From contig NZ_CP146069.1 of assembly GCF_037023735.1 (NCBI RefSeq), forward strand, positions 723,501 through 787,500: a stretch of DNA of 64,000 nucleotides, read 5' to 3'. The notes under the pieces were generated by a model. That model did no database searches, was not told the origin of the DNA, and saw only the letters and a program-made list of their open reading frames with translations. Source of the stretch: Roseovarius sp. S88. GTDB taxonomy: Bacteria > Pseudomonadota > Alphaproteobacteria > Rhodobacterales > Rhodobacteraceae. Below are positions 21,227-23,482 of the stretch, in pieces. Every line of letters begins with the position of its first letter. The stretch's first letter is position 1. The position numbers and the translations under genes are program-made.

Positions 21227-21565
21227 ATGACTGATACACCCGAACGCCGCTGGCATGATATGGGCGGGCAAGACGCCGGCCCGGTTCCGATGGAAGGGCA
21301 TGACTTTGCTCTTTGGGAGAAACGCATAGATGCCCTGATGGTGCTCTGCGGGGGCAAGGGGCTGTTCACCGTCGATGGCCTGCGTCGCGCGCTGGAAGAC
21401 ATGGGTGAAGAGGCGTTTGAAAAACACAGCTACTATGAACGCTGGATCGCCGCCACCAACCAGAACCTGATCGAAGCCGGCGTCTACACGCTCGAAGAGT
21501 TGGGCCAGCGGATGGAAGAAGTTGCTGCGCGCGGCCCAACTTACGGTGAGGCGCAAGGTGACTGA
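21227..21565 (+). CDS. Nitrile hydratase beta-subunit N-terminal half (thiocyanate hydrolase beta-like)
   Basis: A 112-residue protein that matches only the N-terminal half of nitrile hydratase beta: HDMGGQDAGPVPME, the WEKRIDALM segment, the RALEDMG segment and SYYERWIAATNQNLIEAGV line up with the helical part of that subunit. Databases often call such proteins 'nitrile hydratase accessory protein'. In thiocyanate hydrolase the beta subunit (ScnB) has the same relation to nitrile hydratase. It is the first gene of a tight three-gene operon and overlaps the next start. Whether the complex hydrates nitriles, hydrolyses thiocyanate or does something else cannot be told from the sequence. Confidence 0.8.
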   Translation: MTDTPERRWHDMGGQDAGPVPMEGHDFALWEKRIDALMVLCGGKGLFTVDGLRRALEDMGEEAFEKHSYYERWIAATNQNLIEAGVYTLEELGQRMEEVAARGPTYGEAQGD

Positions 21566-21833
21566 CGCGGTGATGCAAAAAGTTCGCATCAAATCCATGT
21601 TTCCTCCGGGCCATGTGCGCGCGCCCTACTATATCCGTGGCAAACTGGGCGAGATTGAGCGCGAGATCGGCCTGTTCGGAAATCCGGAACAGCTTGCCTA
21701 TGGCCTGAAAGCCGAAGACAAGACGCTCTACCGGGTGCGCTTCACCATGGCGGAGCTGTGGGGCGCAGAGGCGGAGACACCAACCGATACAGTTGACGTC
21801 GAGGTGTATGCCCATTGGCTGGAGGAGGCCTGA
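21558..21833 (+). CDS. Nitrile hydratase beta-subunit C-terminal half (SH3-like; thiocyanate hydrolase alpha-like)
   Basis: A 91-residue protein that matches the C-terminal SH3-like barrel of nitrile hydratase beta: VRIKSMFPPGHVRAPYYIRG, TLYRVRFTMAELWG and DTVDVEVYAHWLE. In intact beta subunits this follows directly on the domain encoded by the gene before, so the beta subunit is split here, as in thiocyanate hydrolase (ScnA). The GTG at 21558, 8 nt inside the upstream gene, gives VTDAVMQKVRIKS; the ATG at 21573 is an alternative. The stop lies 1 nt before the alpha ATG. Confidence 0.75.
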   Translation: MTDAVMQKVRIKSMFPPGHVRAPYYIRGKLGEIEREIGLFGNPEQLAYGLKAEDKTLYRVRFTMAELWGAEAETPTDTVDVEVYAHWLEEA

Positions 21834-21834
21834 C

Positions 21835-22500
21835 ATGCCACATGACCATCACGATCATGATCACCTGAGTTCCTCGGGCCATCCGTTTCGCGCCGACAAT
21901 GACATGGCACTGACCTATTGGCAGCGGATGGAAATCGCCGTGCGTGAGTTGCTGGTGGAAAAAGGACATCTTACTCCGGCTGAGATCAGTGCCCAGATCG
22001 AGGCGATGGATGCCCGAAGCCCTGCTGATGGCGCTGCTGTCGTTGCACGGGCCTGGGTTGATCCTGAGTTTAAGGCGCGGCTTCTGGACAATGCCGCCAC
22101 AGCGACGCGGGAGATGGGCTTTGACATCGGTCCGCTGAACCTGATCGCGGTGGAGAACACGGCCGAAGTGCATAACCTCATCGTCTGCACGCTGTGCTCG
22201 TGCTACCCGCGTAACCTTCTGGGGCTGCCACCTGATTGGTACAAGACCCGCGCCTACCGCTCACGCGCTGTGAAAGAGCCGCGCAAGGTCCTGCGGGAGT
22301 TTGGCGTGCAACTGCCAGAGAAGACACAAATCCGCGTGCACGATAGCACTGCTGACATGCGATATGTGGTCATCCCGGCGCGTCCGGAAGGCACGGGTGG
22401 GATGGACGAGACTGCGCTTACCAAACTAGTCACTCGCGATCTCGATGATTGGCACCGGGTTGGCGCGCGCCCCTGCGCAGGCTTGAGCCAAGTGGCGTGA
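21835..22500 (+). CDS. Nitrile hydratase alpha subunit (cobalt type; thiocyanate hydrolase gamma-like), 3' frameshift
   Basis: A 221-residue metal-bearing subunit. The His/Asp-rich N-terminus is followed by the metal site VCTLCSCYPRNLLGLPPDWY; CTLCSCY is the cobalt-type signature, in which two cysteines become oxidised in mature enzymes. GGAGGAGG lies just before the ATG. The usual C-terminal motif LVTRD-SMIG is broken: after VTRD the frame reads LDDWHRVGARP, but removing one base at about 22441 restores SMIGTGLARAPAQA and a stop at 22484-22486. The last ~17 residues are thus replaced, by mutation or sequencing error. It is the third gene of the operon, in scnB-scnA-scnC order. No activator gene of the P47K type is adjacent. 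Confidence 0.82.
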   Translation: MPHDHHDHDHLSSSGHPFRADNDMALTYWQRMEIAVRELLVEKGHLTPAEISAQIEAMDARSPADGAAVVARAWVDPEFKARLLDNAATATREMGFDIGPLNLIAVENTAEVHNLIVCTLCSCYPRNLLGLPPDWYKTRAYRSRAVKEPRKVLREFGVQLPEKTQIRVHDSTADMRYVVIPARPEGTGGMDETALTKLVTRDLDDWHRVGARPCAGLSQVA

Positions 22501-22543
22501 ACGCGTAAGGCTGTTGCCAAAGGTCTCTCAAGAAAGGCCGCGT

Positions 22544-23482
22544 ATGAGCGACGAGCAAACATCCGAAACTATTTCGCTAACCGAGCGTTTGATCGGTACA
22601 GCCTTGGTGGCACCCATCTGGATGTCGCGGCTTTTGCCATATCGCCTGCGCGTGCCATTCGTGGGCTGGGCGGCCTCCCGGCTTTTGGGACCGCTCGCCG
22701 GATACCGCCGCCGCGTGCGCGAAAACCTCGCTTTCGCCAGACCCGATTTGAACCATGAAACCGTGCGCGATCTGATGCTCAGCGTGCCCGATAATGCTGG
22801 GCGCAATATGGTTGAGCTTTATTCCCCCGAGTTTGCCGACTATGCCCGTAAATCACCCGTCATCGGCCCCGGCCTTCCCGATGTGCGTGCAGCCCGTGAA
22901 GCAGGGCGGCCGGTGATCTTCGTGACCGGGCATTTTGGATCCTTCAACGCCGCGCGGCTTGCGATGATGGAGCAGGGGTTCAACATGGGGGTGTTTTACC
23001 GCCCCATGGCCAATCGTCCGTTCAATGAGCATTACGTCAAGGCCATGGCATCCCTGTCGGAGCCGATGTTCGAGCAAGGGCGCAAAGGCATGATCCAGAT
23101 GGTCAAACACCTGCGCTCCGGCGGCGTGCTAGCGATTCTCAATGATCTTAACGCCCATGACGGTGTGCCGCTTGAGTTCTTCGGAAAACCAGCACTCACA
23201 TCGCTCGCAACCGCTGAAATGGCGCTAAAGTTCGACGCGCTTTTGGTGCCGGTCTGGGGGCTGCGCGATCCCGATGGGTTGCATTTCACCATCCACACCG
23301 AGACGCCCATTGCCCATTCCGACCCCGTCACCATGACCCGCGAATTCAACGCGCGCTTAGAGGCGGCCATCCGCGAGAACATGCATCAATGGTTCTGGAT
23401 TCACCGCCGCTGGAAAGACGGCACTGGCCCACTGGCGGACCGGGGTGCCAAGATTTTGGCAGACTTGGAAAGAAACGCCTGA
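22544..23482 (+). CDS. LpxL/HtrB-family lysophospholipid/lipid A acyltransferase
   Basis: A 312-residue acyltransferase of the LpxL superfamily. The catalytic HxxxxD-like motif appears as VTGHFGSFNAARL near residue 130 (the His-x4-D/N pattern is degenerate: H-FGSF-N), followed by YRPMANRPFNEHY and NDLNAHDGVPLEFFG, typical of the family. A weak N-terminal hydrophobic stretch suggests inner-membrane association. Members add a secondary acyl chain to Kdo-lipid A, and in alphaproteobacteria some act on ornithine lipid or other lysolipids. The start at 22544 has AGAAAGG upstream. The gene lies 43 nt after the nitrile hydratase alpha gene but seems unrelated in function. Confidence 0.8.
   Translation: MSDEQTSETISLTERLIGTALVAPIWMSRLLPYRLRVPFVGWAASRLLGPLAGYRRRVRENLAFARPDLNHETVRDLMLSVPDNAGRNMVELYSPEFADYARKSPVIGPGLPDVRAAREAGRPVIFVTGHFGSFNAARLAMMEQGFNMGVFYRPMANRPFNEHYVKAMASLSEPMFEQGRKGMIQMVKHLRSGGVLAILNDLNAHDGVPLEFFGKPALTSLATAEMALKFDALLVPVWGLRDPDGLHFTIHTETPIAHSDPVTMTREFNARLEAAIRENMHQWFWIHRRWKDGTGPLADRGAKILADLERNA

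Follow-up and report, generated by a model that had tools for sequence, protein, structure and literature searches.

The window, a 64,000-nucleotide stretch of the Roseovarius sp. S88 genome, carries three closely spaced genes of nitrile hydratase type, all on the forward strand. Gene 1 (21227-21565; 112 aa) corresponds to the N-terminal half of the beta subunit (betaN; AnhD/ScnB-like), with PF21006 NHase_beta_N as its sole Pfam domain (E 1.2e-20). Gene 2 (21573-21833; 86 aa) corresponds to the SH3-like C-terminal half (betaC; AnhE/ScnA-like), with PF02211 NHase_beta_C as its sole Pfam domain (E 3.4e-19). Gene 3 (21835-22500; 221 aa as read) encodes a cobalt-type nitrile hydratase alpha subunit (PF02979, E 1.6e-75). 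Both beta domains are encoded at the locus, in separate genes. For gene 2, the ATG at 21573 gives 86 aa and an alternative GTG at 21570 gives 87 aa; a TTG at 21522 opens its longest frame, of 103 aa. The gap between genes 1 and 2 is 7 bases (4 with the GTG start), and that between genes 2 and 3 a single base. The host genome (3.64 Mb, 99.48% complete) has a single alpha gene.

The NCBI model for the full-length beta subunit, TIGR03888, matched gene 1 at model positions 3-101 and gene 2 at 143-226, and neither gene reached its cut-off. The two halves align with 3qxe_B at 5-92 and 136-218, respectively, and gene 1 also aligns with 2dd4_B at 46-141. Gene 1 has Arg53, Arg54 and Glu57 within the conserved beta helix Arg-x-x-x-Glu, and gene 2 carries the GHxR motif. 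The alpha subunit has a His-rich N-terminus and the metal motif CTLCSC at residues 118-123, which in the sequence continues as CTLCSCYPR (residues 118-126; 22186-22212, forward strand). The best PDB match of alpha was 2dpp_A (E 1.8e-58); the match to ScnC had an E of 1.5e-42. With TIGR01323 it scored 234.3 bits, 15.6 bits short of the equivalog cut-off of 249.85. An assignment as ScnC was rejected, the score with TIGR03887 (thiocyanate hydrolase gamma) being 178.7 bits against a cut-off of 291.45.

A first-pass annotation of this DNA had described a beta subunit split into N-half and C-half genes, followed by a cobalt-type alpha, in the gene order of thiocyanate hydrolase. Both points were confirmed: PF21006, PF02211 and PF02979 each fall in a gene of their own, and all six loci above the ScnC cut-off are likewise betaN-betaC-alpha. 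The lengths given there were 112, 91 and 221 residues, and the first and last stand; no start of gene 2 gives 91. The subunits had also rightly been called shorter than ScnB, ScnA and ScnC (157, 126 and 243 residues in chains 2dd4_B, 2dd4_A and 2dd4_C).

Purifying selection acts on all three genes. For genes 1 and 2, dN was well under dS in comparisons with five relatives; values for gene 2 were 0.22-0.30 for dN and 1.4-3.0 for dS, the latter near saturation. For gene 3, dN was well under dS against four relatives, and the fifth gave no dS. Past the residues TRD, the window alpha reads LDDWHRVGARP..., and all ten aligned relatives read [S/C/A/H][M/L]IG. In a DNA alignment with five relatives, the window had one extra base. 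The last 19 residues of alpha (22441-22500, forward strand) are probably out of frame, judging from these alignments. The extra base would be either a real frameshift or a sequencing error, and this copy of the gene may be impaired. That a shift in this tail, kept in all ten others, has recently inactivated a three-subunit nitrile hydratase in the window is very unlikely: the shift comes after the metal motif and the remainder of the alpha domain, no stop interrupts genes 1 and 2, and a sequencing error would explain the extra base equally well.

Spread and neighbourhood of the split layout

PF02979 matched in 136 of the 248 genomes in the Rhodobacteraceae sample. Every listed place was retained except 12 fragments of at most 60 bits, and the resulting 137 family loci were sorted with HMMs built from the window's genes. 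They comprised 39 split loci (the window included), 92 fused loci, two with alpha only, one with a broken beta (L095) and three without a full alpha. The order betaN-betaC-alpha was found in all 39 split loci, and alpha preceded beta in 91 of the 92 fused ones, the exception being L089.

At class level, matches were obtained in 142 of 385 genomes, and the best 29 further loci were all split. The best 80 named loci out of at least 593 matches included 71 split, four with the order betaC-alpha-betaN, two 'other', three with alpha only and none fused; both this set and the class set were chosen by similarity to the split alpha, and their proportions are not representative of the whole. The two 'other' loci (L238 and L272) also have betaN and betaC on separate frames. 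Named holders of the split layout include Roseovarius, Jannaschia, Thalassovita, Litoreibacter, Yoonia and Albimonas. The layout also occurred in other alphaproteobacterial families and in another order of the phylum. Outside the Alphaproteobacteria, it was found in Streptomyces and Planktothrix, and in bins labelled Chloroflexi, Rubrobacter, Betaproteobacteria and SAR324, labels that can be wrong.

Several loci deviated from the usual arrangement. A cupin-like gene lies between betaN and betaC in L042, L047 and L059, and a lysozyme-like gene in L052, both named from the look of their sequences. The cupin-like gene of L042 was matched by no other locus at E 1e-8. Because other genes intervene in these four loci, the beta halves are independent genes. 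Five loci had the order betaC-alpha-betaN, with betaN in the activator's place: L246, L248, L260, L271 and L305, the last on plasmid p2 of Rhizobium ruizarguesonis, where the three genes are followed by an aquaporin gene and have CbtA/CbtB genes upstream, on the opposite strand. In L263, a tandem pair of betaN genes precedes betaC and alpha, leaving one copy potentially available as a chaperone. L175 has a classic activator together with alpha, betaN and betaC and falls inside the fused group of an 87-row alpha tree; its beta was either split a second time, independently, or frameshifted.

Neither an amidase nor an aldoxime dehydratase gene lies beside the window locus. The host genome has three amidase-family genes, all away from the locus, and its searches for Dehydratase_hem and CbtA gave no match. 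The split operon of A. rubi adjoins an amidase gene, and cobalt/nickel transporter genes are found near the split operons of Streptomyces NBC_01176 and R. ruizarguesonis. Such neighbours fit a metabolism from nitrile to amide to acid and a need for cobalt. Directly downstream of alpha in the window is an LpxL-like acyltransferase gene (22514-23482). Homologues were found near 51 of 170 split loci and none of 112 fused loci, a comparison biased by flank length, as only 20 fused loci exceed 5.3 kb against 111 split loci. With flanks so unequal, and the neighbourhood probably reflecting plain synteny in Rhodobacterales, the gene was rejected as a clue to the substrate.

Activator genes

Classic nitrile hydratases depend on a betaN-like activator. 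With a Pantoea activator as query, 110 of the 112 fused loci and none of the 170 split loci were matched; the split set contains duplicates of some genomes and many loci whose flanks extend only 1.5 kb. A profile built from 106 activators matched all 112 fused loci, a partly circular result, and nothing extra in the 170 split loci. With a betaN profile, 169 split loci had one betaN and L263 had two.

The same picture was obtained for the whole host genome. Gene 1 was the sole betaN match above the cut-off; the only other hit was the alpha N-terminus, which was weak (E 0.003). The activator queries matched gene 1 alone, below any cut-off, and gave no other candidate. Gene 1 was also rejected as an ordinary activator, scoring 13.6 bits with the activator model TIGR03889 (cut-off 46).

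The sensitivity of these searches was controlled on thiocyanate hydrolase loci. In five of the six (L279-L283), a betaN-like gene of ~141 residues lies downstream of the thiocyanate hydrolase gamma gene, and both the Pantoea query and the profile missed it. Its copy in L280 reached no Pfam or NCBIfam cut-off. This gene is likely the thiocyanate hydrolase activator. When it was itself used as query, those other split loci that it hit were matched via their own betaN. There is no recognisable activator in the window locus or in the genome, by tests that miss distant activators.

Diagnostic residues and phylogeny

Residues were counted over distinct rows (151 split, 110 fused and 6 ScnC), with betaN missing from the alignment for one split row. 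Directly behind CTLCSCYP, 148 of 151 split rows and all six ScnC rows have Arg or Lys, and each of the 110 fused rows has Trp, Phe, Leu or His. Directly behind the invariant beta Arg, a basic residue (Arg or Lys) stands in 145 of 150 split rows, 6/6 ScnC rows and 5/110 fused rows, the fused rows having mostly His there. Both sites were basic in 142 of 150 split rows, in every ScnC row and in none of the 110 fused rows. In the window, these are alpha Arg126, which aligns with Arg136 of 2dd4_C, and Arg54 of gene 1; Leu52-Arg53-Arg54 of gene 1 aligns with Arg90-91-92 of 2dd4_B. The two basic positions presumably line the substrate pocket. Searches of the open-access literature, with partial coverage, found no statement of a basic pair common to split enzymes and thiocyanate hydrolase, and nothing relevant on the pocket arginines of the latter.

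Conservation was also counted at other positions. All 158 split rows kept the invariant beta Arg (Arg53) as well as the GHxR His and Arg, and 150 kept the Gly. The site of Glu57 was Glu in 158/158 split and 111/112 fused rows, and Asn in 6/6 thiocyanate hydrolases, of which five have Tyr at the His site of GHxR. Read from the alignment, the window is nitrile hydratase-like at the Glu57 and GHxR His sites. The His-rich alpha N-terminus was rejected as a split-specific trait, since N-termini with four or more His were no commoner in split (95/151) than in fused rows (86/110).

Two trees were built by a quick method from sampled loci, one of alpha (87 rows) and one of all three parts (77 rows), both with the root unknown. 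The fused enzymes clustered together, with L175 at 99 (starred) in the alpha tree and alone at 100 (starred) in the three-part tree, where the clade includes Rhodococcus, Streptomyces, Pantoea and the archaeon Haladaptatus. No statement that fused enzymes form one clade was found in the open-access literature, which was partially covered. The window grouped at 99 and 100 (starred) with split rows from Rhodobacterales, outside the six ScnC rows, which formed one starred group in both trees. Because some divergent split rows fall beside the fused clade (six in the alpha tree, one in the three-part tree), the split rows do not necessarily form a single clade. In the quick three-part tree, ScnC was nested (97, starred) with split rows of Streptomyces and Rhizobium. 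The best tree that kept the 50 split rows together without ScnC improved on it by 5.6 log units, and the two were not separated by an AU test (p 0.56). A tree of betaN and activators, with only 91 columns, showed three separate groups and does not root the history. Since the root is unknown, fusion and fission are indistinguishable.

These results bear on whether the enzyme hydrolyses thiocyanate or another small anion, acting like thiocyanate hydrolase though outside its family. Such an activity would match the shared three-gene order and the basic pair formed by alpha Arg126 and gene 1 Arg54. The pair is not independent evidence of function, however, because the trait tracks the tree and may reflect inheritance. 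The score with the gamma model is far below the cut-off, the Arg triplet of thiocyanate hydrolase is Leu-Arg-Arg in the window, its Asn is replaced by Glu57, and the window lacks the extra downstream betaN-like gene. We regard a thiocyanate-type activity as improbable.

It is exceedingly unlikely that the window's beta was locally broken from a normal fused beta by a frameshift or nonsense mutation and that the locus is decaying. The alpha tail does look frameshifted, and two loci of classic order, L095 and L175, do have a locally broken or split beta. A local mutation is nevertheless disfavoured because the split is common, occurs in the same order in all 39 family loci and is accompanied by dN far below dS in each gene. 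Moreover, split loci have no match to the classic activator, other genes can stand between the beta halves, and split alphas lie outside the fused clade. The first-pass annotation had reserved the local reading for the case that close relatives encode an unsplit beta or that alpha groups within classic nitrile hydratases. Close relatives proved to be split as well, and the window alpha falls outside the fused-beta clade, so not within the classic enzymes.

Proposed enzyme and comparison with known systems

We consider it likely, from the domains and residues encoded, that the betaN, betaC and alpha chains form a cobalt (III) nitrile hydratase that replaces the usual alpha-beta pair. The locus represents a conserved and probably functional lineage of three-subunit cobalt nitrile hydratases. 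The chains would assemble as (betaN-betaC-alpha)2, and alpha cysteines 118, 121 and 123 would bind Co(III) and become oxidised. The metal centre would then add water to a nitrile, giving the amide. By analogy with AnhD of S. canus, gene 1 may double as a cobalt and subunit-swapping chaperone, and therefore no separate activator would be needed.

A wider scenario is rather unlikely. Three-gene enzymes would be the older and broader half of the superfamily, with betaN originally both subunit and cobalt chaperone. All classic nitrile hydratases would descend from one event that joined one betaN copy to betaC and turned a second copy into a dedicated activator, and thiocyanate hydrolase would be one specialised three-gene member. 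The basic pair would then mean that small or anionic cyano compounds are the substrates of many marine three-gene enzymes.

Three-gene and fused enzymes separate cleanly and differ at the two basic residues, which makes it possible to test where the activator and thiocyanate hydrolase came from. Nitrile hydratases encoded by three genes are common and easily missed, as plasmid records call betaC an 'SH3-like domain-containing protein'. Their seeming independence of an activator matters for enzyme production in other hosts.

The published locus of Streptomyces canus CGMCC 13662 has the order <anhD><anhE><anhA> without an activator gene (PMC7329996). The enzyme is described there as a cobalt-type AnhD2E2A2 complex of ~93 kDa, with subunits of 10.41, 11.35 and 21.33 kDa and with AnhD as a metal and swapping chaperone. 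It hydrates acetamiprid and is almost inactive on indole-3-acetonitrile (PMC7329996). A further paper terms it a novel three-subunit enzyme with the key residues AnhD-Glu56 and AnhE-His21 (PMC13243292). In a 2012 phylogeny, the beta of Roseobacter sp. CCS2 was put aside as it 'appeared truncated' (PMC3323583), an appearance perhaps due to its being split. Six nitrile hydratase gene orders have been reviewed, and the S. canus layout is not named in the available portion of that review (PMC7193024); the available portions of PMC7321127 and PMC10098168 mention no split beta. In the open-access literature, partially covered, no three-gene enzyme was found announced for the Roseobacter group.

The S. 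canus enzyme is, by its published description, one of the closest known systems to the window locus, though it comes from a different phylum: AnhD-AnhE-AnhA corresponds to betaN-betaC-alpha, with small subunits, cobalt and no activator. By position, AnhD-Glu56 and AnhE-His21 likely correspond to Glu57 of gene 1 and His14 of gene 2. The AnhD start taken from a primer in PMC7329996 (MARINDVG, as translated here) differs from those of the two Streptomyces split loci in the present set. The earlier suggestion of a third, smaller type of the family in Rhodobacterales must be abandoned, with the same layout present in other alphaproteobacterial families, Streptomyces, Planktothrix and bins of other phyla, and with subunits of such sizes already in print for S. 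canus. The window locus belongs to an already known, little studied three-subunit layout and is not a new third type.

Thiocyanate hydrolase (ScnB-ScnA-ScnC, PDB 2dd4) shares with the window the split beta, the gene order, CTLCSCYPR and a basic pair in the beta helix. It differs in its longer chains, third arginine, Asn and downstream activator-like gene, and the window lies outside the ScnC group. Toyocamycin nitrile hydratase (ToyJ-ToyK-ToyL) is a further system with three subunits. Classic cobalt nitrile hydratases have a fused beta, an activator and Trp or Phe after CTLCSCYP, whereas the window has two beta genes in another order, no activator and Arg at that site; with these enzymes the window shares the alpha domain, the metal motif, the beta Arg and Glu, and two residues of the GHxR motif, His and Arg.
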